This document shows, piece by piece, positions 2,603-51,200 of a stretch of 64,000 bases of DNA; position 1 is the first letter of the stretch, and the number at the start of each line of letters is the position of its first letter. The position numbers were made by a program, and so were the translations under genes. Source of the DNA: Siphonodentalium dalli. Its lineage: Eukaryota > Mollusca > Scaphopoda > Gadilida > Siphonodentaliidae. The notes under the pieces are model-generated. The model searched no databases. It saw only the letters and a program-made list of their open reading frames with translations, and was not told where the DNA came from. The stretch lies in the NCBI GenBank assembly GCA_032622095.1, contig CP136069.1, positions 157,777,043 to 157,841,042 on the forward strand, given 5' to 3'.

Positions 2603-4040
2603 TATTACATGATCCGTGCACTTCAACCTGTGCTTAGAAATTAAACTCGTTTCTTACTACATCTGTGACCGATGTTAACAATGTGGGGGTTGAGGCTCGG
2701 ATCCCTGCCAGATTCAATACATTGTGCACTAATCTCGTACAGCCTCAATAATTACCAAGATATGTATAGGTGTAATTATTGTGCTAAAGTTTAGCTCCAG
2801 CCATTGACCGACGGACTGTACTGTTTCTTGCTGTAATGTGTTGATTATGTAATAGCTACTCAGTGCCAGATAATTTATTTTATTTTATCTGCATTAAATT
2901 GTTTTGTTAAATTAGTATCATATTCGTAATGTCTGGAACGGTCCTACTAAAAGCCGATTGCACCCGTCCGCACCGACCGACATCCACCAGGGGTCTGAGT
3001 GAGACGGGGCAAGCACTATGGTGCAGAATAGACATGTATGTACCAAAGTTATAATCCCAATGTCGATAGCTCGAGTGGAACCCACAACTTGCGCCAGGTT
3101 CCTGCAGGTACTCAAAATCCAAAAAGGCACCGACCGCAGCCCCGTAGCTGCCAAAATATATGTCCATAGTTAAAATAAAGAGCTGTTCTTGATTTATGAA
3201 GTTATCCGAGCTTAGAATTCCGATAAAGTCATACATGGAATTATTAATTCTCATATTATATTATTGAACTTCCACATTTCGTCTCTTGTGCACTGAGTAT
3301 ATATTTTCCGTTCACTAACAATATAGCCTGATAAAGTTTGAATTTGCCACCTGTTTTGTTATTTATCTTTCTACTTACGATATTATTGACACCATATGTA
3401 ATGTGAAGACTTGAAATCTTGAGGTTGTTAATGTTTTCACTCAGTTCACATATATACATGTATACCATTCAGTCGCATACCGGCTAGTCCCGTGCACAAC
3501 ATGTCCAATATCACATCATAACAACACCTTATATGTGCGTATATATGGGCTACCAGCAAATAATTAGATTGCACTAATGATACATTAATAGGCGGATTTG
3601 GTTGTCAGATATCCACATTCAAAACATGAATTTTTAAAACGGTTTGAATTGTGCCAGGCTTACAAAATGCCAACGATAATAAATAATTAGATAGAACACA
3701 TGACCCATTAACATTATATATTTATTGCATTTATTCGAGGTTGACATGAGTAGGCAACAGGCCGAGGTGAATATTAACTTCCAATGGTTGATAAATCCTC
3801 ATGTCAACCTCGAAACAATGCAATAAGTATGTTATAAAGTTGTCAAGCACATTAAGTCTGACATACCTTACTGACCGGTGTACATGTATATATGTACATG
3901 GATCCATCGAATGCGCAATAGTGTGATTCAACAAGTCAAAATTTAACCCATGGATATATATCAAACTACAATTGCTATTAATAACTGACGACATCGTCTG
4001 AGCTTGATATTAACCCATAATTCCTATTTATAGGAAAATC
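2603..4040. repeat. 1.44 kb direct repeat, copy 1
   Basis: This 1438-bp segment recurs at 4824-6395. By eye the copies differ at roughly ten substitutions, a 4-bp deletion (CACATATATACATG against CACATACATG) and one 138-bp insertion in copy 2. No coding region is recognisable; the parallel open frames seen in both copies are short and have no known motifs. Confidence 0.95.
3727..3822. repeat. Hairpin within the duplicated segment
   Basis: CGAGGTTGACATGAG at 3736-3750 pairs with CTCATGTCAACCTCG at 3798-3812, around a 47-nt loop. Weaker complementarity extends outward (TGCATTTATT and a TGCA-ending partner). The same hairpin recurs at about 6082-6177 in copy 2. Function unknown. Confidence 0.8.
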
Positions 4041-4823: not shown

Positions 4824-6395
4824 TATTACATGATCCGTGCACTTCAACCTGTGCTTAGAAATTAAACTCGTTTCTTACTACATCTGTGACCGATGTTAAC
4901 AATGTGGGGGTTGAGGCTCGGATCCCTGCCAGATTCAATACATTGTGCACTAATCTCGTACAGCCTCAATAATTACCAAGATATATATAGGTGTAATTAT
5001 TGTGCTAAAGTTTAGCTCCAGCCATTGACCGACGGACTGTACTGTTTCTTGCTGTAATGTGTTGATTATGTAATAGCTACTCAGTGCCAGATAAAATTTT
5101 TTATTTTATCTGCATTAAATTGTTTTGTTAAATTAGTACCATATTCGTAATGTCTGGAACGGTCCTACTAAAAGCCGATTGCACCCGTCCGCACCGACCG
5201 ACATCCACCAGGGGTCTGAGTGAGACGGGGCAAGCACTATGGTGCAGAATAGACCTGCATGTACCAAAGTTATAATCCCAATGTCGATAGCTCGAGTGGA
5301 ACCCACAACTTGCGCCAGGTTCCTGCAGGTACTCAAAATCCAAAAAGGCACCGACCGCAGCCCCGTAGCTGCCAAAATATATGTCCATAGTTAAAATAAA
5401 GAGCTGTTCTTGATTTATGAAGTTATCCGCGCTTAGAATTCCGATAAAGTCATACATGGAATTATTAATTCTCATATTATATTATTGAACTTCCACATTT
5501 CGTCTCTTGTGCACTGAGTATATATTTTCCGTTCACTAACAATATAGCCAGGTAGACGGCAGGTAGACAACCTTCTTGGTTATGCTGTCCCCGATAGCTC
5601 ATTGAATGTTATACTATTACACTGTATATAATTGTATATATCATATGAATGAGTTATGAATAAATAATCATAGTCATAGTCATAGCCTGATAAAGTTTGA
5701 ATTTGCCACCTGTTTTGTTATTTATCTTTCTACTTACGATATTATTGACACCATATGTAATGTGAAGACTTGAAATCTTGAGGTTGTTAATGTTTTCACT
5801 CAGTTCACATACATGTATACCATTCAGTCGCATACCGGCTAGTCCCGTGCACAACATGTCCAATATCACATCATAACAACACCTTATATGTGCGTATATA
5901 TGGGCTACCAGCAAATAATTAGATTGCACTAATGATACATTAATAGGCGGATTTGGTTTTCAGATATCCACATTCAAAACATGAATTTTTAACACGGTTT
6001 GAATTGTGCCAGGCTTACAAAATGCCAACGATAATAAATAATTAGATAGAACACATGACCCATTAACATTATATATTTAGTGCATTTATTCGAGGTTGAC
6101 ATGAGTAGGCAACAGGCCGAGGTGAATATTAACTTCCAATGGTTGATAAATCCTCATGTCAACCTCGAAACAATGCAATAAGTATGTTATAAAGTTGTCA
6201 AGCACATTAAGTCTGACATACCTTACTGACCGGTGTACATGTATATATGTACATGGATCCATCGAATGCGCAATAGTGTGATTCAACAAGTCAAAATTTA
6301 ACCCATGGATATATATCAAACTACAATTGCTATTAATAACTGACGACATCGTCTGAGCTTGATATTAACCCATAATTCCTATTTATAGGAAAATC
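4824..6395. repeat. 1.44 kb direct repeat, copy 2, with insertion
   Basis: Near-identical to 2603-4040. After removing the 138-bp insertion its length is 1434 bp, matching copy 1 less the 4-bp deletion. High identity means a recent duplication, or two assembled haplotypes. Confidence 0.95.
5550..5687 (+). mobile_element. Short retroposon (LINE/SINE 3' tail) in repeat copy 2
   Basis: Absent from copy 1, so its limits are clear. It is flanked by a 6-bp target duplication, ATAGCC (5544-5549 and 5682-5687). It has a TATATAATTGTATATATC stretch, an AATAAATAAT-like signal and a tail of ATAGTC repeats, which fits a 5'-truncated retroposon in + orientation. The family is not identified. Confidence 0.75.
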
Positions 6396-6586
6396 CAGTA
6401 TATATCGTGATTTATCAATTCCCTTTCCGTATAATTTAGTATGGGACTTTTAGAAAAAATGTTTGATCATAATTATTATACAAATAGGTTTTGATGACCA
6501 GATATCGACTCACAAAATGGAAAGTTTCAACACCTCTTGATGTTTGTATTAGTCCTGCACATATTCCAATTATCGTCTCTTTTATT

Positions 6587-7033
6587 AGATCATGCCATGA
6601 ATATCTACTCTGGCTAACGCCCGTAGAGATCATATTCCACCAGTACAAAACCTGGTTTTGACAGGGAACCTTATAAAGACGAAAAATAACGCGGGGGAAT
6701 ATATTCTTATATAGTTATTATCTGTTCAGTAATAATGTACTTAGCTGTAGGTGAATATTCCAACTCGAAATTGCATGCTTTTCCGTCACTTGCGAGCCGA
6801 TATCGCAATACACACAGCAAAATCGCTCACAAAGTCACTTTAATCGCGAAATTTCGAGCGTTAGTGAATTACATTATTAAGGAACTTATTTTTAACTAAG
6901 AAATATATTCCCCGCGTTATTGTTTTGACTTTATAAGGTTCCCTGTCAAAACTTCAAAAAGTTCCCAGGTTTTGTACTAGTGGAACATGATCACTACAGG
7001 CGTTAGCCAGAGCAGAGATTCATAGCATGATCT
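6587..7033. mobile_element. Family-A MITE (AGATCATGCCATGAAT TIRs)
   Basis: The 447-bp element has long imperfect TIRs of about 140 bp. The left arm begins AGATCATGCCATGAATATCT and runs through CTCTGGCTAACGCC, CAGGGAACCTTATAAAG and GGGAATATATTC; the right arm is its reverse complement. Related ends occur at 14664/18820, 22925/23240 and 27084/29600, so this is a multicopy family. No coding capacity. Confidence 0.85.
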
Positions 7034-7731
7034 ACTCTTTCATGAGCGTTCATGCTGCCTTTGCACACAGTCAACATATTATAAAAAGCGTTCTCAATTA
7101 TGAACTTGAGGCGTGGGCGTGTAACTTACGGGAGCCTGACCGTGCTTGTGTTGATGTCTGCCTGTGGCATACGAATGATCTTAATTTAATGTATTATTAA
7201 TTTATTTTTCTTTTGCATGGCAAGCGACAAATTGGTTACGAAATTGTGTCAACTGTGATATCAAATGTGACATATCATCCGTAAGTGACCTTATTATAAG
7301 ATAAAGTAGAGGTTCATGACATATTCAGACCAATCTTAAACTTGTAAAAAGGGCTGCACCTTTAATGGTTTTACTTTAGAACATTGCTGTTGAGTTCGTG
7401 AACATTTAAGTGGTCACCCGATTGCTTGTTCTTATTGGAAGTATGCATGTACTCCCAAAGACGTGTGCACCGACTGCCATTGGTAAGTTCTCGCATACGA
7501 CTGGCATATCGTTACGGTAAATCAAAATAACTACGTGGTGGCTGTCATTGCAATCGGTTATTGTTCTGACGAGGTTTTCTTGGCATAAGATATATACTTA
7601 TATGCACTATATATGTTTGTATGTCTAGTAATTTATGGTAAACACTGAGTACATTTGAACTGTTGATTAATCAATGATCATGTGGTGTTGTAGACTGTAG
7701 TTCTTGTGAATATTATATGAGATACTATATT
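7034..7731. other. No feature recognised
   Basis: AT-rich sequence without open frames of note, TIRs or tandem repeats. Confidence 0.45.
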
Positions 7732-12854: not shown

Positions 12855-13919
12855 TCACGTTTCTCTACCGACTCCCAGATAGAACTCGACTTCTGGTGGT
12901 TCACAGTCGAAAAATGTGCTGACTGTGCTCCCATATAGGCAAGTGTGGCAATTTGTCAGCAGGGTACCTACTATGTAGTACTTTCCAACAGGTTGTAAAT
13001 ATAGTTTCAAATTCTTCTTAAAGTCGAGAAATGCAAATGTCTTCACAACTTTCCCGAAGCTCCATTCAACTGAAACCCTGACTGCTGACATTTCTTTATT
13101 GAATTGTTTTTCTTCGTCACTCCGCCTACCCCTGAAAGGTGCCATGAGGTGTGGTCTCAATGGGTATGCCGGATCTCCATATAGAGCATAAATGTGACCA
13201 TCGGTCCTTGTCATGCGCTGTTCAATTTTAGGCAGTAGTCCACTCAAACGCAACATACCCGCATCGTGGCGTCGTCCTTCCACTGGTCCATACAAGTTAG
13301 CAATACGTCCGTCCGGAGTTGTGACAGCTTGGAATTTCAGGCAGTGGAAACGCTTGTGGCCGCTAAAAACAATCCTTTGGTTTTTTCTGGGCCGACAGAT
13401 CGGTCTCGCGGTACCATCTATAAACCCCCAACAATTATTTAAAGGGATATCATGTCCGTTGATAGCATCCGTATATCTTTCCAAATGTTCATGTTGCAGC
13501 CATGGTTAGTCCAGTTCTTCCAGTAAATGGTGATGTTCGGTATATATGTGGTCAATTGTCTCGTTAAAAATTCTCGAAATTTCAGATATCGAACGTCCGA
13601 ACATGTCGACCAAATCAGTCAAACGATTTGGATAAGTAAGTCTACGGAGAGTTATGCACAGCTCATCTACCCCCGAGACGACGGTACCGTTGGTGCATAT
13701 GAATTTTTCAGGGATGCGCATAGCTTTGACAAGCCTCTGTATGTCGTCCTTTAAGAATCGAAAATTCTTCGCACATTCCCCATCAGTAGCTTGATTAAAA
13801 TCCAATCTTTTGGTTAAACTTGCTCTTGGACGATCTGCAGCCTCAGCGATAAGAAAAAGAATATCATCTGTATCAGCATATTCAGCGAAAAGCATCAAAT
13901 CAATCGATGAATGCGACAT
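12855..13919 (-). pseudogene. PIF/Harbinger DDE transposase, one premature stop
   Basis: A 355-codon frame reads from 13919 to 12855 with a single internal TAA at 13506-13508. It therefore appears as an N-terminal 137-aa piece and a C-terminal piece of about 210 aa in the same frame. The N-terminal part has a helix-turn-helix-like region (RLTDLVDMFGRSISEISRIF), and the C-terminal part is the DDE_Tnp_4 nuclease. Candidate catalytic residues are D in WGFIDGTARP, D in YGDPAYPL and E in VSVEWSFGKV. The family cuts and pastes DNA at TWA-like trinucleotides together with the SANT partner encoded head-on at 10112-12797. Apart from the nonsense codon no frameshift is seen, so decay is recent or the stop is an allele or a sequencing error. 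No upstream TATA box was clear. Confidence 0.9.
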
Positions 13920-14663
13920 CGCTGCGACCTCTCACTCTTCGACAGACTAATATTAATATGTGACCTACCGTTAAATGGTGAGGTGACCACCCTTGACGAG
14001 TGTTCACATCGCACCTGCAACCAAACAACCGATTATCCACAGGTTAAAACCCACCGGCGTGTTATCCCTTTGTCCAGACAAGGCTCTTATCTGGCAGAAC
14101 TCTCAAGCGTTTCGATCGCATGAGCATTATTTTAACGCCAGCGGTCATTCTTTTTTAAGAATGCCCGTGGGCATTATTTTTTAAGAATGCCCGTGGGCAT
14201 TATTTTTAAGAATACGCAAGGGATTAAATCGACTGAGGGACGTCATATGGTGGCTCCTCCCCACTCATGTAAGTTGGCGTCAAGAGCGCGTGTCGGCGAG
14301 CTGCATTAAATATCGGAACACTTACTTTGTTTGAGCTAATTGAAACTCACAAATATTTGGCAATTTTGATTTTATATTGCCAAAAAATAAAATAAAATTT
14401 CTTCAAACTTTGATACAAAAACACCAACAGATATTTGGATTAACTATTTAGAAAAGTCCGCAGACAGGCTAAAACACATATAGATAACATCTAAATACGT
14501 CCCCAACTCGGTCAAATAAAAACAAAACACAGAATTTAACTATACATGACTTATTGAACGAGAAAGTGCTCCCATGGTTATTTTTAATACAATGGTGAAA
14601 CACAGAACAAATATTACATTTCCAGTATCAAATTGAAACAGGACAGTGTATATCCATGTGTAT
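13920..14663. other. 5' flank of the transposase gene
   Basis: Non-coding. Should hold the transposase promoter, but no clear TATA box or splice leader was found. Contains the short tandem repeat at 14150-14213; the remainder is AT-rich. Confidence 0.4.
14150..14213. repeat. Short tandem repeat, about 26-bp unit
   Basis: TTTTTAAGAATGCCCGTGGG and GCATTA recur in two full copies and one partial copy. The core GCCCGTGGGC is itself palindromic. It lies about 250 bp upstream of the transposase start, where it could act in binding; that is speculation. Confidence 0.7.
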
Positions 14664-15812
14664 AGATCGTGTCATGCATATCTACTCTGGCTTCGCCAAG
14701 AGATCATACTCTACCAGTTCAAAACATAGTAACTTTTGGTTGCTCTGACAGGGAAGTTTTATAACATTGAACAAAATGCAGGTAATATAATGCTCAGTTA
14801 TACCTGTTCCCACGCTGGTCATCCGTGTAACGAGGACCCGGATAAGTAACGACGGACGCGACTTCCATGTGAAGAAATTGTCTCGGGCTAGTCAAGAAAA
14901 ACGGTGAGTAAATGCCTTTAAAATTAATCTACCTATGTGTTAGTGTGCGTAGTGTTTTACGACAATATTAGTCTAAATCGGTGCGTGCTAAATTGATGTC
15001 AACGTGTCCACAATTAATGTATAAAGAGGAAAGTTATTGCAAAATCCTGAAATTGCACGCAAATTGACCCAATATATAATGTTATCACGTGCAAATCTGA
15101 ACAATTTATGACGTTCAGGTATCGCCGGGATCCCTGTCATTGAAATATAAGCAACACAACCACCGCCAAGCAACCAGTTTCCAGTAATTCGAATATTTAG
15201 CATTATCAACGAGTAACGAGGACCCGTTATCCTGTAACGTTGGACGCGCTTTATAAATCACATTGAGTAACCGCGGACGCGAATATTCCGACAAACAATT
15301 AATTTAGAAACATGAATGTTTTGAATGTATAAGGAATCACATGTTTATGTGTTTTACCATTATTTGTCGGATTGTTAACCAACTGTTTCGCAGCAAATTT
15401 TAAACAGACGAACCGTTGTCATGAGACTTGGGTGCTTCCTCTCACCATTATTCTGTTTCTCGTTGCACAACTAAGAGTGTATATGAATGTTTTCTATCGA
15501 TATACACGTGGCTGGGTGGATTTCGGACCCTAGCCGTCGGCGAGATATTATCACTCAAGCTAATATGGGACCCTGATGCAAATTACACGTGTGTGGAGAT
15601 CACTAACCCATGCCAGCAGGCATGTTGTGATACTGGAACAGTATATTTGTTGTTGAGCATTTCAGGCCCTATAGAATGTCCAAACTATATATAAGACTTG
15701 TTAAGTTATCGATTTATTATAACCAGTGTGAGATTTGAGATATTGGATGGAAAATTCCAAGGGGTCGCAAATGAAATACAGTCTAACGCTTGCAATCTCT
15801 TATTCTACAGGA

Positions 15813-16028
15813 ATGGACGAGATAACAGCTACCCCATTCCGATGTTACACCTGCAAACTGACATTCACCACTTTGGCTGACACGGTTGACCATGCCACCA
15901 CATCACACCCGAACACGGAACTCAATCTCGACAATAAAACAGGAAAGTGTGTATATAAAAAAAATAAGCCACCCAGGAATAATTCCATCGGACAACAGCA
16001 AAGAAATAATATTATCCAGCGACAATAA
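15813..16028 (+). CDS. Single C2H2 zinc-finger ORF carried by the 3.7 kb element
   Basis: The ATG follows a good splice acceptor (TTCTACAG) at 15810, suggesting a 3' exon. The 71-aa frame has one C2H2 finger: FRCYTCKLTF, then H and H four residues apart in DHATTSHP (C-x2-C-x12-H-x4-H). It is followed by a K/N-rich tail with a stop at 16028; downstream sequence is low-complexity Asn/Thr coding. Upstream exons are not certain; the open frame 15428-15694 has no start I trust. Likely DNA- or RNA-binding. It may be a remnant of an element-encoded protein or captured host sequence; the family is not recognised. Confidence 0.45.
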   Translation: MDEITATPFRCYTCKLTFTTLADTVDHATTSHPNTELNLDNKTGKCVYKKNKPPRNNSIGQQQRNNIIQRQ

Positions 16029-16376
16029 CATCATTCACCGACATAAAAATGCCATAAAGAAAAGAAAAATTACAACGAACAAACAGGACCATCAGTATGA
16101 AATAAACAACATATACAACCATAAGACCACCAATAATAGCAGCACAAACAGAAACAACAATATCGACAACGCCATTCGTCATGCACACTGCAGCAGCTGC
16201 AACTCGGACAGTGTCACATCACTAACATCAACAGTGGCAACAACACCAGCCCTGATAAAGAACCAGAGTCACTGGATTTCGAAACTTTCCGTATGTAGCT
16301 TGATAACGTAATACACACATTATATCGTCGACTGACTGAGTGTGGACACACGAATATCTTTAAAGCTTTTTGTCAA

Positions 16377-17526
16377 CTAATAGCAGGGGAACATTTCCAA
16401 CGAACAGCGTAGCATACAACCTTCTACTTGACGTTGTCCGTTGGTTCCAGCGATCCAATACATCTCAAATGAGATATCCGGATACATCACTGAAATTCTG
16501 GCAGACTGGATATCGCCTTTTTCGTGGCAAATATCTGAGGTTGATGTCTGGGTGTAGGGGGTCTCGGTGCATTTTAGACAACCCTGACGATAGAGGATCT
16601 GTATCACACACTTCTCGCAGAGAACGTTATGGTGGTGGCCAGATCTGTGAGCACTGAATTCGTCACTCGATCGGAAACGTTTATGACAAGATAGTTATAC
16701 ACGACATTGGCTTGTCTTTTATATGAGAAAGTGAATGTTGCCGTAATGATTGCAGGTTTATATATTTCTTCCACATTCGTGGCACCGTTGGTTACCAGCA
16801 CCAGAAGGCGGTGTCACCGGTAAGCTAGGCTGTCATCGAATGCTGGCTGTTTCGGCACCTGCTAATTTTCGGACCAACGAAATTAAAGACTAAATTAGTT
16901 TTTGTGTTATTCTTTATTTCAATAAAATGTGATAAAACATGTAACATGGTAACAAAAACAACACTGGGTGGAATGAATGGTAACGATGATGAACGTATAC
17001 GGTGCTCAAGTCATGCAAGGAACGAATACTGAACGGAATAGCACAACATGTCATGAACATGCATGTAGCAATGTCTCCAGGTGTGGATATACAAGCCGAC
17101 AGAAGCTTTCAGGAAAAGAGCGTTCCATGTTAGTCTATTCCTGATATGGTATAAATAAAGAGCGTTTATTTGAAAGCAGTATTTGTCAGAGCGAATAAAT
17201 GAGTTTTCATCTCTGTTTTTTTGTATTCTTTGAATAATTATTGTCAATCATCTTGAACACGGCTTATGACCAGTAGAAAACACAACCTTGAATCGGGTAC
17301 CCCGGAAAACGCTGTCGAATGGCCTGCTACATTCCAGCCTCGGTCGAAGTCTAAGACAAATCGATCGAGTCTGATGTTCGATGGTACATCGGTTGTCTGT
17401 GGCTCGGAGCACTGAATAGCAGTCATCTCGTCTGCTTGTCTCGGTGCAGTAGACGTCGATCTGAGAGAATCCATGGGCGTTGGCCTCTAGAAAGGCCGAA
17501 CCATCCAAACACCTGGGCCGAAACAA
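16377..17526 (-). other. Unrecognised minus-strand frames (possible captured exons)
   Basis: Three minus-strand frames in the right half look more protein-like than chance. The frame 17526-17248 is cysteine-rich (YCTETSRRDDCYSVLR, ECSRPFDSVF, ending HKPCSR). The frame 16801-16604 is beta-rich (TATFTFSYKRQANVVYNYL). The frame 16607-16377 has CHEKGDIQSARISVMYPDIS. No splice model joins them convincingly and I recognise no family. They may be exons of a host gene captured by the transposon, or noise. Confidence 0.25.
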
Positions 17527-17542
17527 CCAAGTGCAGAAAATT

Positions 17543-17600
17543 CAGGTGCCGAAACGTCCAGAAAACCAGGTGCCGAAACGTCCAGGTGCCGAAACGTCCT
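17543..17600. repeat. GTGCCGAAACGTCC short tandem repeat
   Basis: CAGGTGCCGAAACGTCC occurs three times at 17-24 bp spacing inside the 3.7 kb element. Confidence 0.8.
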
Positions 17601-18820
17601 GCATCCCTGTCATCGACTTTCAGGAATTCGCCTTCAATAGGCACTAATATTTCTCCGCCTGCAAATGAAAAATAGGAATTTATAAATAACAAGACGCGCC
17701 GTCTCATTCGTGGCTATTGTTTATGTATGGGTGCAAATGTAATTTTGAGAACTTTTAGGAGTGTTTGGTTTGTTTCAAGGGGGTACAGTTGGAAAAATCC
17801 AGATCGACATGCATCACCCGCCCCAAAGGAGGCGATAAGGACACGCCCCGATGTGTTATAGTATATTTCCCAATATGTTGTGCAAAAATAAAATCTGATT
17901 ATTAATTGGACATATTCTAAATATTTTACCTTTATTGTTTTTCAAACATGACCATATATACCCATGACATATCATGTGAAGGTATATATTTCTGAGAGAA
18001 AAAAACGCGTCCGTCGTTACAAATTTTCGCGTCCAGATACTTTCCCACAGAAAATTCAACGGGTCCTCGTTACTACCAAAGTTGCTGGAAACGCGAATAA
18101 AAGTCCATTTTACTTGCATCTATAGCAATCCTGAAATTTCTACGGTATGTTATATATGTGAACGGCACACACATCATCCGGCATGAAAACATATATTAGA
18201 GAGGAGGTTTCGTATTTATGAATTTTCATTAGTTATTTGAACATATTTTCTTCGATAAATCGTAACCTCATAGTTTAGTGTCACAAATGATGCTAAAATA
18301 TCTAATCCAGCATGACATAACAAGTTGTAATTGGAGAACCAACTATTGTTAACGATAATAATAGAACAAAATCGTCTGCTGAAACCGACAAGGTATTATA
18401 ATAACGATCTGTGTGTACCTACCTGAAGTCATCGCTCGTGGAAAGCATGAGGGACTGGTCGTGTCCGTCGTTACTTATCCGGGTCCTCGTTACACGGATG
18501 ACCAGCGTGGTTCCGTATAGCATTTTATTTTATAGCAGGTAAAGGTCCCAACTCGAGTTTGCATGGTTTGGGGGACTTGAATTAATCGATTTGACTATGC
18601 GTCGCTTGGAATTTCATTGATGTTGGCTCACAAAGCTACAAAAATCTTGCAATCTCGAGCTGGGAATTTATTGTCAAGGAACAAGTATTAACACAGAAAT
18701 ATATTCCCTGCGTGGTTTGTTCAATCCCATCAGAAGATAATAGAAAAGGTTCCCAGGGTTTGAACATATGGAAAATGATATCTACGGGGGTAGCCAGGTT
18801 AAAGATTCATGGCATGATCT

Positions 18821-19242
18821 AACATGTGTGCCGAGCTTGCTCATTTTAGGGTGAAAATTAAAGGTACGTGAGGCGTTCGTATGAGTCTGATAAATCATTA
18901 TCAACAATAGAAAATGTTGAACAATAGATTGGTTTTGTTCTTATAAAATGTTGATTGTCGATAAGGCATGGATAACGTGATCATGCGTGTTTTTTTTTTA
19001 CTTTTCTTGAAGCACGGGTCGTTTTACAATCGTTACAATCTCTTTGGTAAATGGTCAACAAAACCGAGATTCAAGCAATATTTGGTGATAAAATGACTGT
19101 CAATGCTACAGTACTGTTCACATAAGTATGCAAAATGCATGGGAAGTGTCGTTGTTGAAAATCAGCGATCCAGTTAAAACGAGGTGTTTTGGTGTTTGAA
19201 AAGAATTGTGTGCACATTTACTCACTGCGAAAAACCCCACGT
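18821..19242. other. Harbinger interior between nested insertions
   Basis: AT-rich, non-coding. Contains TTAAAGGTACGTGAGGC near 18858, which resembles the end of the 502-bp MITE and may be a fragment. Confidence 0.35.
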
Positions 19243-19744
19243 TTAAAGACACGGTTGGCCTTGGCGGTGGGTATCCTGTGAAAATATCTCCACCCGTCAA
19301 AAACCGCCACAAACAGAAAGAACATCAAAATGTAGACAGACTTTGTCCGTACACAAATAAGAAATATCGCATAAACAGTATGTTATGGTCCTATGTTTGA
19401 CCATTGTTATGTAAACAAAAGCGTAAAAAGTTACTTTTCTGGTGTTTGTTTATATTATGATGGCAAACACAAAGAGCGTTCTTTGTTGGTGAATACCTGA
19501 TATGGAACTAATAAAGAGCGTATATGCCATTTGTGTGTGATTAGCCAGTAGCATTGTGTTGTCTTCTGTAACACAACCAGGCTCTTGCTTAGGTAAAATA
19601 TAGTAGGTCTTTATGATAACATGCTGTTTACGTGATGGTCATGGTATATATGAACGGAACTGTATGCGTCTTACTGTTTTTATGTTTACGGTGTTTGGAA
19701 CAAATATGAATATTTTCGAACATTAAGGCCGCACGTGCCTTTAA
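19243..19744. mobile_element. 502-bp MITE, copy 1 (TTAAAGG..ACG ends)
   Basis: Begins TTAAAGACACGGTTGGCCTT and ends GGCCGCACGTGCCTTTAA. A near-identical copy of equal length lies at 36601-37102. The ends are short imperfect inverted repeats with TTAA at both borders, compatible with a TTAA (piggyBac-like) or a TTA/TAA (Harbinger-like) target. Confidence 0.85.
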
Positions 19745-22024
19745 TGCTGGCATACGCCATTCCATTATTAACTGAATTTAAAAAAACAAAACAACAAATT
19801 AGACTTTTATATATATGCTAGGATTTTACAGTATTCAGGCTCATATTTCAAATTGTTTCATGATTCCTCCCCGCAATAGGTACAGTTAGGAAATTCCAAG
19901 CCACGGGGTTGGAAGGAAATAAAATTACACGCCATTGCGAGCTCGGCCTGTGTAAAAGGGGCGGGATGCAGCCGGAAAATCCCAGGAGCCCTCTAGCCAC
20001 GTCGCTGATGACTTATCAACTATATATTTACGCGATTGTATGCCGTTTCGAAGAAAAGATAATACATGCATGTTATACATTTGTGCACTGACCATTTGTT
20101 GTTAACTTATGTGGGTGATACTTAAATGTATATGTAAGGTCATCGTGGTGGGGGAATATTTGGAAATCATGCATATACGATGGGAATTTGCTAACAACGG
20201 GGAATGGTCCATGTCATGTAAGAATTGTCCAATAACTGGAAATGTTATGATACCTTTCAGTTTGAAACATCATGATGGGGTGGGTGTGCGAAATTAAATT
20301 GTCATATTGTTCTGAGTCACGTCTAGCCACGCCCCTGTGTATAAACAATATGGTGATACTTAAAATTCAAGCTAGTACATCATGTAGGCGTCTTTCTGAT
20401 AATAATTGGAAATTCAAGATACCCCATACGATTGAACACTATACTTCTATTCTTGCGTATTCTACACAAGACAAACAGTGAGAAAGAATCAGTAAACCCA
20501 TTTATGCAAGCTTTTTGTGTGCTTTCGACTTCTTAATAATGAGACAGTTTTACCTGGTACCCGCGTGTTGTTGGGCGCCAGAATATTCGAAAAATCACAT
20601 TTTATAAAGAGCGTTTTTAGTTCATTACCAACCAACGATGAAAATTGAAGATCACATTATTTTGGATGTTTCTTGTAGTGCTGTATGCATGGTGATGCAT
20701 ATGTATAACGACCATTATTTTTCATGTTTTATTGCCTGATAAATTATTATGGAATGTTAACTTATTTGATGCCGAATTAGATGGGGCATCTTTAAATCAA
20801 GAAAGAAAAAAAAAATAAACAAATACAATTGGATAGAAATATATTGCTCACATACACTGGCCGAATCCATAGCGCAACGACAAACTTCGGAAGAAACGTC
20901 CTTCAACTGGCGAGTCCTAATTCGAATTAAATAATAATTGAAATGTGTTGCTTTTCGGCGTGGACAACACAAACTGTCCGTGCTGAACTGTGGGCGTGTA
21001 GTCAGGTAATCAAGACAGAGCTGTGGGTCAGACAAAATGGATAGTTGGCTCCAATGTCAATTCAATTGGTGGGTTTTAAGTCAGATAATATTCTCAGCGT
21101 CGAGAATTCGTTAAAGAATAGACTCGGCGCAAGCGCCTCGTCTAATCTTTTAACGAATTCCCTCTGCTTCGAACATTATCCATTACCTAATCCCGTGATA
21201 GATGAGAGTATAACTCCACCGATGCGGTATGGCCAGAATCGTGTTGTATAATACCCACTAATTTCTCGTTTGGAAGGACATGGCGCAATTCAACAACAAC
21301 AATGATAAATATTGTAGTGGGAATAATATAGGCCGATACAGAACGAAATATATATATATAAACTTTAAGATCTTCGCATTCTTACCATAGTCACATGGGT
21401 TGTCAGCTGTCTTCTATGTTTCGCACATACATGAAGCAAACGCTCTTCATTCAAACCATATATAGCGAATAGACTACTATTAGTTTACAAGTTCAACTTT
21501 TCAACCTACCGCCGGGTTTAGACCCGGACAACAATATCAATTTTTGGGATAAATTTCGGCATTCTTCGATCTTTTTAAAGATTCCAGCCAAATTTTCACT
21601 TAACGTGACAAAATATTCCCCAACTAATATAGGGTGCAAATTTGGTCTTATATTTGACTGAAAGTTAATACAGGGCATTACTGGACCTGAGTCTAAACTT
21701 TACGCTGAATCTCTATTGGAAACTTTAACTAACGCAATTATATTAGAGCAAGCATAACCTATTTGCTCAGTCTAAAAAATTATTTGTGAAATCGAATTGT
21801 GAAAAATGTTACCAAAATGAGTGACAGAAAGACAACCAACCCCTCCCATTGTCGCCTCGTCCCTGGTGAGTGCAACTGATTACACATGAGGCCCATCCTA
21901 TCTATAACGGTAAGTATAACGACGACCAATAAAGCGAATTTCTCTATAATATAATTTATCAATTGTGTCGCAGTTGGCTGACCATACATTACCCGTCGAT
22001 ATGCTTAATTCTACCCGTAAAACA
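19745..22024. other. Non-coding stretch left of the proposed Harbinger right end
   Basis: No recognisable gene. Near 19875-19990 and 20270-20340 are segments sharing a 'tagccacg(tcg/ccc)ctg' motif with dispersed repeats. It contains the hairpin at 21103-21160. The open frames here are short and unsupported. Confidence 0.35.
21103..21160. repeat. Near-perfect hairpin with GAATTCGTTAAA arms
   Basis: GAATTCGTTAAAGAATAGAC and CGGCGC pair with GCGCC.. and ..TTTTAACGAATTC across an AAGC-like loop. A 58-nt imperfect palindrome of unknown role; a tiny MITE is possible. Confidence 0.75.
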
Positions 22025-22924: not shown

Positions 22925-23240
22925 TAGATTCCACGAATCTCTGCTCTGGTTATGCTCATATATATCATATTTCACCAGTTGAACTAAGTACCTGGTGAAT
23001 ATCCATGATTTTGTAAACGATGCATAGCGAAATTGGCGTTACAAAAGTTGCCTAAATCATGTAAATCCTATACTGTGAAATACGCGCACTAGCGAACATA
23101 TATTAGCTAAGAGATGCATTATAGTTTCAATGTATAGACTTCCTTGTCAGAAATTCTAAATTTTCACTGGTTTTGAACTGGTGGATTGTGATCTCTACGG
23201 TCATAGCCAGAATACAACACAGACCAGCCTAGATCATGCC
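22925..23240. mobile_element. Diverged family-A MITE
   Basis: Left arm TAGATTCCACGAATCTCTGC, CTCTGGTTATGC and TTCACCAGTT; right arm GAACTGGTGGATTGTGATCT, CTACGGTCATAGCCAGA. Same order as in 6587-7033 but more diverged, with an unclear right end. Confidence 0.6.
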
Positions 23241-25477: not shown

Positions 25478-26086
25478 GGCGGCTTATTTGAAGCCATGGT
25501 AAACTATCCACTTCATCGATAGACCAAGTCTTCTCAGCCGACAACAGCTGGATATATCGGTTGGGTTGATGCTGTTTTGACGAGTCCCGTCCCTCTACTC
25601 TCCCATAACAGACTGTCACTGAAAAGACGTACATGTACTACAGTTACACTGGGAGCCAACACGCGTACAACTGAATGTGATTCATCACCCTTCAAAAATG
25701 ATATATTATTTAAAGGTAAAGTGATGACACGATCGTTTAATATATTGTTTACATATATTTTCTGATATTGCGACACATTGACATTCTCTGGAAAGCAAGG
25801 CTTTGTTTACATATAAATTGTGTTGCTTTGACATTCAACTGACATATGCTATACGGATGTTTGATATCATCATTCTTGGGAAAGGCTATACCCTCTGTTC
25901 ATATACGTATTTTTGACATAAACCAAAGTCATACAGCAAGATAACTCCCGCCTCCGATTCTGGGCGTAACGTCTGTAATAGAAGAGTAACGGGACGGGCC
26001 TTGGTTCAAAATAGCATCAACTCAACCGACATCCCAAGCTGTTGTGGACCGAGAATACTTGGTCTACTTTATGGACTGAGCCGCCG
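25478..26086. mobile_element. 609-bp inverted-repeat element adjoining the 88-bp array
   Basis: Imperfect inverted ends of about 105 bp. The left has GGCGGCTTA, GATAGACCAAGTCTTCTC, GACAACAGCTGG, TCGGTTGGGTTGATGCTGTT and CCCGTCCC; the right (25976-26086) is the reverse complement. Open frames over the left arm are not genes. Its right border lies 3 bp from the first unit of the array, so the two may be one composite element. Confidence 0.75.
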
Positions 26087-26088
26087 AA

Positions 26089-26744
26089 GGCCCGTGTTCT
26101 AATTAAGAATCACTGGTCCCCGACACAGAATTAGACATAAAAGTAAAGCACCCGTATCTTACATGTATATAGAGGAGGTCCGTGTTCTAATTAAGAATAA
26201 CTGGTCCCCGACACAGAATTAGACATAAAAGTAAAGCACCTGTATCTTACATGTATATAGAGGAGGCCCGTGTTCTAATTAAGAACCACAGGTACCTGAC
26301 ACATAATTAGACATAAAAGTAAAGTACCTGTATCTTACATGTATATAGAGGAGGTCCGTGTTCTAATTAAGAATCACTGGTCCCCGACACAGAATTAGAC
26401 ATAAATGTAAAGCACCTGTATCTTACATGTATATAGAGGAGGCCCGTGTTCTAATTAAGAACCACTGGTCCCCGACACAGAATTAGACATAAAAGTAAAG
26501 CACCTGTATCTTACATGTATATAGAGGAGGCCCGTGTTCTAATTAAGAACCACAGGTACCTGACACATAATTAGACATAAAAGTAAAGTACCTGTATCTT
26601 ACATGTATATAGAGGAGGTCCGTGTTCTAATTAAGAACCACTGGTCCCCGACACAGAATTAGACATAAATGTAAAGCACCTGTATCTTACATGTATGTAG
26701 AGGAGGCCCGTGTTCTAATTAAGAACCACTGGTACCTGACACAT
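26089..26744. repeat. 88-bp tandem array, about 7.5 copies, with 264-bp higher-order pattern
   Basis: Units start at 26089, 26177, 26265, 26353, 26441, 26529, 26617 and 26705 (the last partial), each GG(C/T)CCGTGTTCTAATTAAG and so on. Variants recur every third unit: CCACAGGTACCTGACACATA marks units 3 and 6, and ATAAATGTAAAGC marks units 4 and 7. Arrays like this form the core of bivalve pearl/Helitron-related elements; membership here is inference. Confidence 0.95.
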
Positions 26745-27611
26745 GACTTCCGTTCGGAAAGGCGAAAGTGTATTAGCTGATTTCAAAGTAATTAATGGAA
26801 TTATTTTTTGTTATCCGGGCAAGGTGCCAAAATCTAGTATTTACATTAGGCTTAATTAGGTGCTTTATGTGAAACACATGTATCTTAAAAGCAACATAGG
26901 TTTCGTAAAATTAGCTTACAACCCCAAACACATCTTTAAGGTTTCTCATCGTCACAATGTTTCATCACCAACCTAGATATTTGTTCCTCTAACACACAAA
27001 CATTAACAGCACAGTAACAAGCAAATTGTCATTTCTATACAATTATTGAAAGGAGACCCGATTTATTGACTAGGGGTATCCAGAGATCATGCCATGAATC
27101 TCTACTCTGGCTACGCACATATAAATCATACTCCACCAGTTCAAAACCTGGGAACTGTATGATGTTCTGACAGGGAAGTTTATAACATTGAAAAAAACAT
27201 TGCACATCATATATTACTCAGTTAATAGTTGCGCAGTAGGTGAAGGTCCCATCCTGAGATCGCATGATTTGTGTGATTTTTCTTTGCGTCTTACAATCGT
27301 GGATTTCCTCCCGGTTAATCAATTCAATATTTCTTGCGATAATCGGATCAGAAAAGTCACAAAAATCATGCAATCTCGACCTGGAACCACAGAATACTGT
27401 GCAATAGTTCACCCCACCCATAAATGTATCCTTCTGATTGGTCGAGAGCTATGTCCTATATATGGTGTAGCTAAATCTACTGTCCAAACTCGCGTGCAAA
27501 ACGCAGTGAACAGAGACAACAATCTCGAGAAAAAATATATACAGAAAGGTATTACCAAGGCGTGTCCAAATTAAATTGAAACATTATGTGGACAATATTT
27601 TCGGGTAGAGT

Positions 27612-32678: not shown

Positions 32679-33204
32679 CTAGGCCTCCATTTCACTGTTG
32701 TCGAAAGGCTGTTTGTTCGAACAGTCAACACCTTGGCATTCCCCACAAGACATAGAACACATAATTCCATGTTTTCGGCATGTGCACCTATTGCTTTTGC
32801 AGTCCGTTTTACATTTACAATGAATGATGTTCAGTAGTTCGTTTGGAGCTGGTGGTTCCTCGCATTTGATAGGATTAAGCCACCCATCCTTTATTAATAA
32901 CCTGCCATCCCCAATCAGTTGGTTCCAAATTAAGCACCTTCCGACATTGCACCTGGTGATATTGTATGTAAATGAAATCCTTTTCTACATAAAAGTCTGA
33001 CCATCGATCTATATTTACAATATACGTCGATGGTCTGACACAGCAGGTTACATCACCTCTGGTCGGCGCTTTGGCAACAGTGATAAGCCTCTGAAACAAG
33101 AGTTGAGGGTCGATATGTACAACGTCATTGTCGATCTTGAGAGACAGAGCACTCAAACTGATTGCAAGACAATGTTTCTTAGCAGGAATAAGTCTATTAA
33201 CCAA
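32679..33204 (-). pseudogene. Remnant of a protein with a cysteine-rich C-terminus
   Basis: Two adjoining minus-strand frames read as one protein if a frameshift at about 32877-32890 is allowed. The first (33204-32875) contains KIDNDVVHIDPQLLFQRLI and EPTDWGW. The second (65 residues ending at TAG 32679-32681) contains PPAPNELLNIIHCKCKTDCK and RCTCRKHGIMCSMSCGECQG, with cysteine spacings 1,3,4,1,6,3,2,4 as in CXC/CRC-type zinc-binding tails. I remember similar proteins (DPQLLFQRL block, W-G-W, PPAPxxLL, then the Cys-rich tail) as long, repetitive, transposon-linked proteins of unknown function in many invertebrates. Those are much longer, so an internal deletion is likely. It lies inside the snap-back element and probably came with it. 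Confidence 0.6.
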
Positions 33205-33205
33205 T

Positions 33206-35305
33206 TATAAACAACATACTAAAAAGGATCAAGAAAGGCGAAATTGATCAATTTTGTGAAATAAATTTAGTAAAATTTGGTAAAATACCCATTTTATAGC
33301 TTTTCAAGGATGTTTATAAAAAACTTCATTTCACATGTCCTTCCATTTATATATTCATTTTGTTATCTGATTACAGAACATAAAACATTTTCCAGATACG
33401 TTGAGAATTTTTCCAGTTATGTGCCTCCAAAATTGTGAATTTGTCTAATTTCGGAGCCTCAATTTCTGAAGAATTAGCTAAAATCAATATTTTAGTGTCT
33501 AGTATTTCAAAAACTAGAGAACAATGATGGGATATCTTACTGTTGTATTAGTTGACCTCACTATATTGTGCACAAAAAAATATTTCTTTATGCATCTATG
33601 ATCGAGAAGACAAAAATATTCTTAAACAAAATGTGTGTTCTATTTGCCTTGTGACACAGAACTGGTGTGATGAAATACCATATTTGAGGTCATACAACTC
33701 AATAAATTGATATCCATATGCCCTGTATTTCTCATAACCTCTTACGTATACTAGATTAAATATACTGTGCTGGAATTGCTAAACACATATGTGCCATAAT
33801 CAACTTATGGCCCTATGAATCCTTTGTATTGACTCTTTTCCAAAAATGCCATTTTGGACTGTTTTGTGGTGTTTTTGTCCATTTTAAATTTTTTCTTTTG
33901 CACAAATAGTAAACAACAATGAATAAAATTAGTGTGTAATGTGTAAAATCATTTGAATGTTCCTCCTAAAACACTTAGTGTTGGAAAAAATATTATTACA
34001 TTGGTTATGCCAATCAACAGTCACTGGATTTCACATATTTTGAATGTTGATAATGGGGTAGGTGAAATCACAAAGGCTATGATCTTGTCACCATATTCTA
34101 GTCATTGGAGACAAAGGGTTGTTTTATTCCAGTTTGTGCAGATTATTCTTGCATGGTAAACAGTTTAGTACTTTAATAATTATTAGATGTTTATTTAGAA
34201 CTTTATCAGCATGTTATATAGAACCAGCCAGAAATAATGATTCGCTATTTCGCCATTGATTTACAACAAAAATGATTGTAGCTCTAAATATGAACATCAA
34301 AACAGGAAGCAGTTTGCTCTGTATGAAATAATAACATTTGTAGGGGCTGGTGATGTTAAATTTTTATGCATCAAGGTCCATATATTCTAGATTTTGTCAA
34401 TATGGTTTCCCCTACCCCATTTTTCAGATATTCAAATTTGGCATCAGTTTCTAGAAAAATTAGTGAAATTCAGTGACATTCATTGACATGTCCAACATAT
34501 AGCATTTATTTCAACACTAAAGTGTTTCAGGAGGAAAGTTCAAATGATTTTGCACATTAAACATACATTGTTTTCACAATTTATACACAAAAACCTTTAA
34601 AAATGAACAAAAATCTCCCCAAAATGACATTTTTAGATGATTCAATTCTAAAGATTCATAGGGCCATAATTTGATTTTCTACACCATGATTTGGGAAATT
34701 CCTTTACAATGTGTTTAATAATGTATACCTAAGTGATTATGAGAAAGACAGGGAATATGGATATATAATTATTGATTTGTATGACATCAAATATGCTATT
34801 TCATCACGGCGGTTCTGGACCACAGGCAAATTTGGCTGCCCATACAATGGTGGAACACACATTTTGTTTAAGAATATTTTTGTCCTCTCAATCATAGATG
34901 CATAAAGAAATCATATTTTGTGCACAACCTAGAGAGGAAATGACTAAAACAACAAGGAATCCCTTCATTTTCTTTATTTTTTTAAATACAAGACCATAAA
35001 AAATGGATTTTAACTAATTTTGAGAAATTGAGCCTCCGAAATTAGACAAACTCCAAATTTTGGAGGCACATAACTAAAAAAATACTGAACGTATCTAGGA
35101 AAGGTTTTCTTTTCTGTAATCAGGGTTGTGCACTCTACAAAATGGTTATATAAATGGAAGGACATGTGAAAGGACGTTTTTTATAAACATCCTTAAAAAG
35201 CTATTAAATGATTATTTTACCAAATTTTGACAAATTTATTTCACAAAATTCATCAATTTCGCATTTCTTGATTCTTGTTGATTTTTAGTATATTATTTGT
35301 GATGG
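33206..35305. repeat. Long inverted repeat, arms about 1 kb, centre near 34240
   Basis: Paired blocks include CTTTATGCATCTATGAT (33590) with ATCATAGATGCATAAAG (34892), GCCATAATCAACTTATGGCCC (33793) with GGGCCATAATTTGA (34661), ACATGTCCTTCCATTTATAT (33337) with ATATAAATGGAAGGACATGT (35147), and GTTCCTCCTAAAACACTTAG (33959) with its partner at 34520. Arms have diverged, so the palindrome is old. Confidence 0.9.
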
Positions 35306-36600: not shown

Positions 36601-37102
36601 TTAAAGGTACGGTTGGCCTTGGCGGTGGGTATCCTGTGAAAATATATCCACCCGTCAAAAACCGCCACAAACAGAAAGAACAACAAAATGTAGACAGACT
36701 TTGTCCGTATACAAATAAGAAATATCGCATAAACAGTATGTTATTGTCATATATTTGACCATTGTTATGTAAACAAAAGCATAAAAAGTTACTTTTCTGG
36801 TGTTTGTTTATATTATGATGGTAAACATAAAGAGCGTTCTTTGTGGGTGAATTCCTGATATGGAACGAATAAAGAGCGTTTATGCGATTTGTGTGTGATT
36901 AGCCAGCGGCATTGTGCTGTCTTCTGTAACACAACCAGGCTCTTGCTTAGGTAAAATATAGTAAATCTTTATGATAACATGCTGTTTACGCGGTGGTCAT
37001 GGTATATATGAACGAAACTGTATGCGATTTAATGTTTTTCTGTTTACGGTGATTGGAACAAATATGAATATTTTCGACAACTAAGGCCTCACGTGCCTTT
37101 AA
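36601..37102. mobile_element. 502-bp MITE, copy 2
   Basis: Begins TTAAAGGTACGGTTGGCCTT and ends CACGTGCCTTTAA. Same length as copy 1 at 19243-19744 and mostly identical, including AAAGAGCGTTCTTTGT and CACAACCAGGCTCTTGCTTA. No coding capacity. Confidence 0.9.
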
Positions 37103-38850
37103 TCTCTTTAGACTTCCGTAAAATGGGTTTCCCCAACATATTGTCATAGCCATACGCGGGCCCGTGTCACGACATATCATCGAGAAAACTACGGGCGTCA
37201 CATTGCAAGGATTAAAGCGATTCCAGGACTGCAACAAAACGAATGTGACATAGTCAATAGTTGGGTTTACCAGTCTTGTGCTGTATGATGTCATTCGCAT
37301 TGATTTTTTTCATCAATTCCGAAATCGACTCCATTAACAGCCTATATCTATCCCAATGCTTTGACCAAATATAAATAAATATACCGAATTCAACTCGGCA
37401 AATGTCGGGGTATTCAGCTAATATAACTGCTACTATACCAACCGTTCCCGGTGAAAATTGTTTTCTGGTAACAGTGGTTTATGTAAAAACAATAAATGTA
37501 CATCTGATAGAACGAGAGAGATAACTGATATTGTGTTTTGCGGCAGTATAGCACCACCACATCCATTTATGTTGCTAACTTGTTCAGTAACTTCTCCAAA
37601 CTTCTTCTATAAACAACAACTAATCTCGGATACTACAAAAACTGGATATCGAATATATTTGTTTTAAGGAGATTTTAACGTTCAAATTTCACAAGCTTGA
37701 AAACTGACCAAAGTCACTTGAAACAATATATACTTATGCATATGGGGGCGGGATTATGACGTACATGTATATAGGTTCCGAGCCATGGACAATATAGTCC
37801 TATATTTTATATCACCCAGAAATGGCGCTTGCTTATTGGTCGAGAGCTCTGTCCTATATATAATACAGTGTTGTACTAATTTAGCACTCTACTATATACT
37901 TGTATGGTATCGTTATAAATTTAACACACTACTGTACCGAACTCTCGTGTACAACCATGAACAGAGATAACAATGTCGATAAAATATGTACAGGAATTTA
38001 TCCACCAATTTCACGATCCCATTTTCACAAATCTTCGTACCCAGAAGTACTATGGCCATGTTATTAACTTGAACCTGGCCCCCATTACGTCAGACGTCGC
38101 GTCATGACGTTAATGACATTGTAGCTCAATCTGATGGTGGTCCATCGTCACTCACCCGCTGTTTATCGGCAGATCGGGACGAAACTTGGTACATAGACGT
38201 ATTGTGGCCATGTTACCACAAAACTCGTCAGTTACTACATAACTCGGCGTAACAGACCGACTAGCACATACACCCATGCCCAGCTAGATGTATAGGTACC
38301 ACGAAAAGCTTTGAGAAATCTAAATTTAAAACTATGATGTCGAAAGCAGTATTCCATTGTTCATGGTAGCTTTACATCGGTGGGTTAATCGGTCTCTAGA
38401 ATGTAGATGTACAAAATACAGCGACTTCGCTCGATGAATACATTTCATGTTATGTAAAAGATACGAAGCTCCAGTTTAATACCAAATTTGCTAGTGGGCA
38501 TAGCTATTTCGCAGTAGAAACCAAATTATACAGATGTCCCGAAGCCTTGATTTTGATAATTTTTGTGTAGGTCAGTTGTTGTTCCGGAGTCTCGCTCTGA
38601 TTCTGATGCTTATGTTACGAAATCAAACAACAAATATCGTGGTCAGATCAACCGATCTGAAAACAATCAAGAAACAACTGTGGTATATGTTGAAATTACT
38701 GAAATCATATCATAAATGTCATTATTAAATAAGATAATCTTGCTCAAACTGTTGCCAACTAATAATACCTACATGTATATATGTATGTTTATTAAATTTC
38801 TGCAAAATAACTCTGTATCTTTTATGACGCTGCGCTGGCGCAGCAATAAA
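37103..38850. other. No gene; one fragment shared with 27431-27560
   Basis: TATTGGTCGAGAGCTCTGTC (37833) and GAACAGAGATAACAATGTCGA (37958) match the 3' part of the 27188-27574 region in the same order, so a dispersed repeat is present at about 37823-37990. Near 38160 are GTTTATCGGCAGATCGGGAC-type repeat sequences, also near 41329. Nothing else recognised. Confidence 0.45.
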
Positions 38851-48220: not shown

Positions 48221-51200
48221 TTATGGGTGCAGTATAGGTTTCAGTATGTCCCATCGATCTGCATATTTAGTTTTATTTTCTACATGTTGGAAAATTGTAT
48301 AATATTCTTTTGCATAACTGATGAAAGATCTAACAGTAGGTTTATTGGGGTAGTGAAATTTACAACGAAATATGTAATATTTTATGAAAATTAGCGTGAA
48401 CTTTAATGCACTTTTATTTGTCGAGAATCCCAATAAGACATTTTGATCTGTTATATTTATATGTATTGCATTAAGCAGCTCTTCCCAGAATATCTGTGTC
48501 AGGTGACAATCCCAAAAAAGGTGTTTTATAGTTTCTGTTTCTTTATTGCAGAAATCACATTTTTTTGTACTATTCTTAACAAACTTTGAAACAAGAGAAT
48601 TGGTACCTAATATTTTATGAATAATTTTATATTGAAACCATATTAATTTGACCTCTATTGTTCCACATTTAAACGGCACAGTTGTCAATTTAGGCCATAT
48701 TGTATTTTGTATTGAAAATTCTTGCCACTTATTTGAAAGCTTATCTAGCCACTTCGTTGTTTCGCTTGAGCGTTTTAGGTACTGATGTCCCTTAACTCCT
48801 GCAATAATACGGAAGCTATCAGATATACCAGGTCTATGTGTTTTTGCTATTATTCGACTCGATATATTCATGCATTTCATATATTTCATAATACATTTGG
48901 TTATAGATATGAAGTGTAGATAATTCGGTTTAATTGAAAATTTCTTCCCGAATTGTGAGATTTGAAGTATGTTGCCGTTCGCGTCAAAAAAATCTAAAAT
49001 CGTATGCACTCCTTTCGCTTCCCATTTTTGTATGTATATTGTTTCTCCGTTTATGATAATATCCTTATTGTACCACACTGACTGAAATAACACATATCGA
49101 TTGAAATCGTTGACTTTTTTATTAAATTTTGTCCATGCCGATAAGACTTCGACCCAGAACCTATATTTTTGAATTTTCTTTGAAATCCGACAAATATATT
49201 CATCATTACATAATTTATCTGATATTCGTATTTTTTTTATTTTTTGAAAAAAATCTACAGTTATGCTATTTGTAAATAAAATTCTTCGCATCCAAGATAC
49301 TTTCATTGAATCTATGTGTGTTTCTAAATCGATCATTTTAAGACCTCCCCCCCTCCGAGTAGTCCTGGACTAGTTGCTGGCGTTTAATTTTATCCGGTTT
49401 TTTCTCCCAGATGAAGTTAAACATCAACGTATTTAACTCCTTAACGAAGTTTTTACTAGGATTTTCTACTGATAGGAGAAAATGGTTCAATTGGGGTATT
49501 ATAAATGTTTTGATTACTGTTATTTTACCAATGGGTGTTAACTTTCGTTTTTTCCACACCGAAATTGTTTCTTCGATACTGCGATACACATTGCTGTAGT
49601 TTTCGTGAAAAATATTTTCCTCATTAAGATCGAAATTAGCACCTAGTAATTTGAAGTTGCAAGTAGTCACCAGTCCTGGACAGCTGGAGGGGGGTCGGAC
49701 ACTTCTCTGTTTTGATCCAATCCACACAAGTTTCGTTTTATTGAAATTTATCTTTAGTCCAGATATTACTGAAAACCGTTCTAGGGAGTTGATGCAATGC
49801 ATGATGCTGGGATTAGAACCGTCGAGCAGAAAACATGTGTCATCAGCATATTTTGTCAGCTTTATTTCAATATCACCTACTTTAATTCCTCGTATGTTAT
49901 TATTTGTTCGTATGTGGGTTGACAGTATCTCCGCACAGAGAATAAACAAGTAGGGTGATAGAGGATCACACTGCATGCAGCCCCTTTGTATATTAATTCT
50001 ATCTGAAAGATGACCATATTGTTTGATTGACGAGTATATATCCGTGTAAAGAGTACGAACCCATCTAATGAAAGATGTACCGAAGTTAAATTCTTCTAAA
50101 GTCCTTTGTATAAAATCCCACGACAAGGTGTCAAATGCTTTCCTAAAATCGATTAAAAGCAGACAGCCCGGTTGATTATTTAGCTCTGTAAAATCGATCA
50201 TATCTGCTACCAGTCTAATGTTTTCTCCAATAAATCTCCCTTTCATAAATCCTGTTTGATCCCTATTAATCACAATTTCCAAAAGAGGTTTAATTCTATT
50301 CGAAATGGCAGTTGTGAGAATTTTATAGGGGACCGAGAGTAATGTTAGTGGTCTCTGGTTCTCTAATACAGCATGATCCTTTCCACTTTTCGGTATACAG
50401 TTTAAAATACCATGTTTTTGTGTGATTGACAAAGTTCCGCTCATATATGCCATATTTAGAGAGTTAAGTAAATACTTTTTAAGTTCATCCCAGAAACATT
50501 TAAAAAATTCTATTGTAAAACCACATATTCCAGGAGATTTATTGCATTTCATCTGTAATAACGCTTTAGTTATTTCATCTACCGTCAATTTGCCATCCGC
50601 GGCAAATGATTCTTCCGTGCTAAGACGTTTTATATTGTTGGTATTTGCGAAATCAGACCAGTCACTTTCAGATATTTCAGAAGTTTGTTTTTAATATAGT
50701 TTTTCGTAGTATTTTCGCAACTCTACTAAAATTTCAGATTGATCCGTGACAACAGAATCGTCATTCCTACGGATTTTGAATATCGTGCTTTCCAAAACGC
50801 GTTTTTTTTCGAGAGAGCAAAAGTACTTTGAGGGTCTTTCACCTTCCTCTATAATATTTACTCTAGCTCGAATCATCGAACCTCTCAGTTTTTCAAGTTC
50901 ATACTCATGTAGTTTAGTCGACAGTTCTTCTATTTTTTGCAATTTGGCAGTATCGTTTTTATCGTAATTTATTTGTAAATTTTCTAACTCTTTTTCTATT
51001 TTGGCCTGTTCGTTCAATTTAGTTTTTTTTAATCCTCGAAGCAAACATTATTGTAAACCCTCTTATTTCAACGAGAAGCATTTCGAACAGGAGTTGATCA
51101 TTGATACTAAAATGTTCTCGACCCTCTAAGTTTGCATTTTTTACTCGGTATTGATCTAAAACATCGCCTATTTTCTTTTTAACTCCGGCTTTATAGATTT

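Follow-up and report, generated by a model that had tools for sequence, protein, structure and literature searches.

The 64-kb window, i.e., the whole stretch of Siphonodentalium dalli DNA that was analyzed, harbors at 14811-18509 an element of 3,699 bp that begins with CAC and ends with GTG and that has GTTCC on either side (Table 1). Comparison of the two TIR arms revealed identity at positions 1-47, a mismatch at position 48 and identity again at positions 49-52, and a repeat search of 14500-18800 returned these arms as the longest inverted pair (98%). The left tip reads CACGCTGG and the right tip CCAGCGTG. The single mismatch between the arms is G/A within CG, a change that deamination would give. 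The boundaries and arms obtained here are the same as those of the original prediction, which had described a 3.7 kb element with 47-bp perfect TIRs. When the whole element was used as blastn query, no second copy with its ends was found in the 64-kb window; the best matches within the window corresponded to the 55-bp repeat piece, and the remainder were weak.

Table 1. Coordinates of the element's features and of its target, with the basis of each assignment.
Feature	Position	Strand	Basis
Host MITE, insertion target	14663..18821	.	455 bp without the element and one GTTCC
Left TSD, GTTCC	14806..14810	.	Single copy at paralogous empty site
Left TIR, CACGCTG...	14811..14862	+	51/52 versus right arm
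Outer array, left, two motifs	14827..14860	+	Motif scan
Predicted 5' intron, left unit; donor ACG/GTGAGT, acceptor TTCTACAG/GAA; holds inner left array	14904..15810	+	Splice ranks, inference
Inner array, left, three motifs	15213..15281	+	Motif scan
71-aa ORF with one C2H2-like finger (coordinates include stop)	15813..16028	+	ORF, sub-threshold Pfam
Possible decayed continuation of left frame, two frames, stops	16270..16657	+	By eye
55-bp stretch common to dispersed repeat	17115..17169	+	82-84% versus 19471-19525 and 36829-36883
Predicted 5' intron, right unit; donor CAG/GTAGGT at 18422, acceptor TTTGCAG/GCG at 17659; holds inner right array	17659..18422	-	Splice ranks, inference
Inner array, right, two motifs and a third, diverged, by eye	18006..18073	-	Motif scan
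Right TIR, ...CAGCGTG	18458..18509	-	Arm comparison, inverted-pair search
Outer array, right, two motifs	18460..18493	-	Motif scan
Right TSD, GTTCC	18510..18514	.	Sequence

When joined, the flanks of the element form an old MITE of 455 bp (TAGATCGTG...CATGATCTA). A related MITE of 449 bp at 6586-7034 aligns end to end with the joined flanks in both orientations, since the MITE is nearly palindromic; at the junction, it reads GTTCA or GTTCC depending on the orientation, the site being present once and unbroken each time. Because of this single and unbroken site, the duplication of one 5-bp target at insertion is well supported at the sequence level. This conclusion uses one paralogous site: a partial relative from 27084 matches the left arm to about 10 bases before the junction but is gapped at the junction proper and, thus, says nothing about the target site. 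As one copy of the element is known, the duplication length is seen at one insertion only. Within this scope, the finding is in line with the earlier claims that GTTCC is a clean 5-bp duplication, that the element lies in a MITE arm and that it represents a recent, well-bounded transposon, the last claim agreeing with the near-identity of the TIR arms, the GTTCC on both sides and the unbroken related site. The insertion is probably young. The MITE family with TAGATCRTGYCATG.. ends and a length of about 450 bp is represented in the window by two complete copies, of which the element splits one, and by several pieces, including 27084-27224 and 23126-23196.

Other repeats and genes were observed in the same window. 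A local duplication in two blocks relates 2603-4040 to 4824-6395, and it is probably recent given the identities of 98.9% across 726 bp and 99.0% across 718 bp. The regions 19243-19745 and 36601-37103 are copies of a dispersed repeat (about 500 bp, 93% identity), and a 55-bp part of it recurs in the element and, partly, at 21438-21476. A Harbinger-type transposase (DDE_Tnp_4, 2.7e-25) is encoded on the minus strand at 12858-13505; the adjoining minus-strand frame at 13509-13931 gave no Pfam match. A LINE on the minus strand at 48224-54837 has long open frames for endonuclease and reverse transcriptase, and the frame at 53857-54837 in this region, which may be the first ORF, showed sub-threshold matches of the coiled-coil type. 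Moreover, a tandem array with an 88-bp step extends over 26000-26827 (six of seven overlapping 300-nt registers at 73-98% versus the reference), and long inverted arms at 33200-33640 and 34853-35300, which flank a 1.2-kb center and show three blocks of 86-91% complementarity, are possibly another foldback-type element.

The motif GTAACG..GGACSCG forms two inward-facing arrays at each end of the element, one at about 17-50 bp and the other at about 403-504 bp from the tip. Both strands of the element were scanned with GTAACGAGGACCCG at up to two mismatches and with GTAACGACGGACGCG at up to three, which yielded five copies on the left and four on the right. Their distances from the respective tip are 17, 36, 403, 424, and 457 bp on the left and 17, 36, 437, and 490 bp on the right. 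The inverted subterminal motifs noted originally are therefore present in nine copies, and all nine face inward. Copies of GTAACGAGGACCCG without mismatch number four, two inward from each end. In the 64-kb window, all seven matches of the degenerate motif (up to three mismatches) fall within the element; in 100 shuffles the mean was 3.16, and seven matches were reached in two of them. Moreover, six 12-mers are common to the two end regions that span 61-600 bp from the tips, a number equaled by five of up to 2,000 random pairs of window segments, pairs less than 600 bp apart being left out. Viral contigs contained 25 stretches with one match each to the 14-base motif, which were taken as chance. 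The middle of the element, in which a cluster of short direct repeats is located at 17538-17601, looks like a patchwork, as would be expected if the ends alone keep the element moving.

Splice sites were ranked among the 7,454 GT and 5,961 AG sites on both strands of the window by means of a rough, approximate weight matrix, and they were interpreted post hoc. The top two donors of the element lie 88 bp (18422, minus strand, rank 6 of 7,454) and 94 bp (14904, plus strand, rank 9 of 7,454) within the ends and are directed inward, which hints at two converging transcription units. With a GT density of about 5.8 per strand and 100 bp, the chance that a particular 100-bp stretch has a donor of at least rank 9 is about 0.7%. 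Good acceptors were found at 17659 on the minus strand (rank 8 of 5,961) and at 15810 on the plus strand (rank 13 of 5,961). Contrary to the two-unit model, the predicted right intron encloses the minus-strand acceptor 17992 (rank 2), the highest-ranking one in the element, and the plus-strand donor 16820 (rank 10) is accommodated by no model.

The ATG of the 71-aa ORF is located two bases past the plus-strand acceptor 15810, and its product shows the finger pattern C-x2-C-x12-H-x5-H. The ZNF451 finger pair gave the best Pfam score, 15.5 bits against a cut-off of 30, followed by zf-C2H2 with 13.6 bits (cut-off 25.2). The pattern occurs once in the six frames of the window, and in 100 random second-order sequences of window length its mean was 0.66, with at least one occurrence in 43 of them. 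The C2H2 finger is plausible from its position, not from its score. Regarding the zinc-finger cargo proposed originally, a C2H2-like ORF does exist, but its Pfam scores are sub-threshold and its pattern is near chance level, and its designation as cargo is not supported: as the ORF directly follows the good acceptor 15810, which is pairable with donor 14904, it is more likely the broken start of a gene of the element's own. Two frames at about 16270-16657 resemble, by eye, parts of one decayed protein; Pfam, the viral contigs, PDB, the structure model and codon usage lent this no independent support, and a possible resemblance of the decayed frame to large, uncharacterized proteins of bivalves was given no weight. 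Codon usage does not set the supposed coding remnants apart: among the stretches that lie outside the training genes, those of the element take ranks 9, 10, and 13, of which rank 9 (16844-16993) is not a supposed remnant. The start of the C2H2 ORF has a lower score, and the 95-aa frame (16370-16654) falls outside the element's 13 best stretches. Structure models of the 71-aa and 95-aa ORFs were too poor for use (mean pLDDT 49.9 and 49.7, respectively), and a PDB search with the 95-aa ORF returned no match.

Pfam detected no recognizable transposase in the six frames of the element with stops read as X, in accordance with the original prediction, which had seen none and had left the superfamily open. 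The same Pfam library finds DDE_Tnp_4 in the neighboring element. The sole Pfam match in the six frames, to a bacterial small protein (E 0.16, under the cut-off), was taken as chance. In the collections searched, which comprised viruses and prokaryotes, no transposase-bearing relative was found: a 25-base piece of the TIR was found in none of the viral contigs and none of the genome contigs, and no relatives of the 95-aa and 71-aa ORFs were detected in viral contigs, where 12 and 16 pattern stretches, respectively, failed tblastn. Eight phage records obtained by tblastn with the 95-aa ORF (E 4 to 10) were likewise taken as chance. Rfam and tRNA searches gave no hits. A literature search with the TIR letters returned, among the matches listed, only a 10-base piece, with no transposon topic by title, and a search combining 5-bp duplications, subterminal repeats, zinc finger and novel superfamily gave no match.

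The TIRs, the target duplication and the missing intact transposase are all features of a generic non-autonomous TIR transposon, and the element looks too broken to move by itself. It is probably best explained as a decayed, non-autonomous TIR transposon moved in trans, with a full-length parent that carried two converging genes and with CMCT as the likeliest home. Following this, we propose that a transposase from a full-length relative outside the window would have acted in trans, by which the element would have been cut and pasted into the pre-existing MITE. This transposase may recognize the CAC tips together with the inward GTAACG..GGACSCG arrays (about 17-50 and 403-504 bp from the tips) and would make a 5-bp staggered cut in the target. 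The parent would possess a converging gene pair, with the promoter and a short first exon of each gene in or beside a TIR; the first introns would hold the inner arrays, and the left gene would begin with a C2H2-finger protein. Both genes would now be broken in the element. The CMCT grouping comprises EnSpm, Mirage, Chapaev, Transib and others, with mostly 5'-CA..TG-3' ends and duplications of 2-5 bp (PMC12730594, 2025). Its transposases are recognized as DDE enzymes in which C(2)C and H(3-4)H are located between the second D and the last E. As judged by tips and duplication length only, the CMCT clade (EnSpm/CACTA, Mirage, Chapaev, Transib) is the most likely home: the element is alike in its CAC..GTG tips and, at its one insertion, in the 5-bp duplication. 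However, since it has these tips and this duplication but no transposase in any frame, it was not filed as a CMCT member; the transposase could reside in an autonomous relative. The full tip CACGCTGG was paired with no named family here.

That the element is instead a non-autonomous RAG-like (ProtoRAG/RAGL) transposon or Transib proper appears unlikely. It shares the CAC tip and the 5-bp duplication, both invariable in protostome RAGL (PMC7204232), and its two predicted converging units recall the RAG1L-RAG2L arrangement. By contrast, its tip agrees with the protostome RAGL consensus given there, CACTWMCAAACKTYKBB, at only 8 of 17 positions and lacks the conserved AAA at positions 8-10; the original prediction had remarked that CACGCTG is not the heptamer expected of Transib/RAG-like elements. 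Moreover, Pfam revealed neither RAG1L and RAG2L genes nor any RAG1 or kelch remnant in the six frames. N-RAG-TP of Aplysia, which has been invoked in RAG evolution, is described as devoid of the RAG1 core (PMC8355894); the element resembles it in that the RAG1 core is absent but differs in having no RAG1 N-terminal match. A mainly bivalve survey of mollusc repeats lists one Transib element detected by profiles (PMC10294476).

Repetition of subterminal motifs is typical of hAT elements, which counts in favor of a non-autonomous hAT5-type element, or of another superfamily with CA..TG tips and a 5-bp duplication by chance. Contrarily, hAT tips are usually CAG and hAT TIRs short, whereas the element has CACGCTG and 47 perfect TIR bases, and this reading is improbable. 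The 5-bp duplication is shared with hAT families, namely hAT5 (PMC12730594); hAT transposase was not found in the six frames of the element. The composite-like KolobokP elements, which are abundant in bivalves, have terminal modules that measure about 450 or 660 bp and solo-module duplications of 3-4 or 4-5 bp (PMC9587614). The module length recalls the inner arrays of the element, which end about 470-504 bp in, but the modules are long terminal direct repeats, whereas the ends of the element are inverted: the longest direct repeat given for the 14500-18800 region is 26 nt, and the local score of the outer 700 bp, calculated without random control, was 32 direct versus 88 inverted. The two-gene layout predicted here is also reminiscent of ISL2EU, which is characterized by two genes (THAP/YqaJ proteins), an AT duplication and GG tips (PMC4482050), unlike the GTTCC duplication and CAC tips of the element. 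A degenerate member of an unnamed superfamily, with its own protein beginning with a C2H2 finger, would be consistent with the finding that no frame exceeds the Pfam cut-off and with the position of the finger ORF directly past the predicted first intron; nonetheless, decay and internal deletion suffice to explain the missing matches, and the finger pattern is close to chance level per window, so that this possibility is regarded as very unlikely.

Returning to the decayed TIR transposon moved in trans, a further and quite doubtful possibility is that it belongs to an undescribed animal group, an independent relative of the Transib/RAG branch characterized by CAC..GTG ends, 5-bp duplications, converging genes with first exons in or beside the TIRs, second transposase-binding arrays about 400-500 bp in within the first introns, and a protein starting with a C2H2 finger. 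The element itself is one broken copy of its family and mostly an ordinary find, useful mainly as a query: the 47-bp TIR and the double arrays are sufficiently distinctive for seeking relatives in the host genome. If a full-length relative were shown to be a Transib/RAG-branch member that differs in tip and gene content, an outgroup would be gained for the origin of RAG-type ends and of converging gene pairs.
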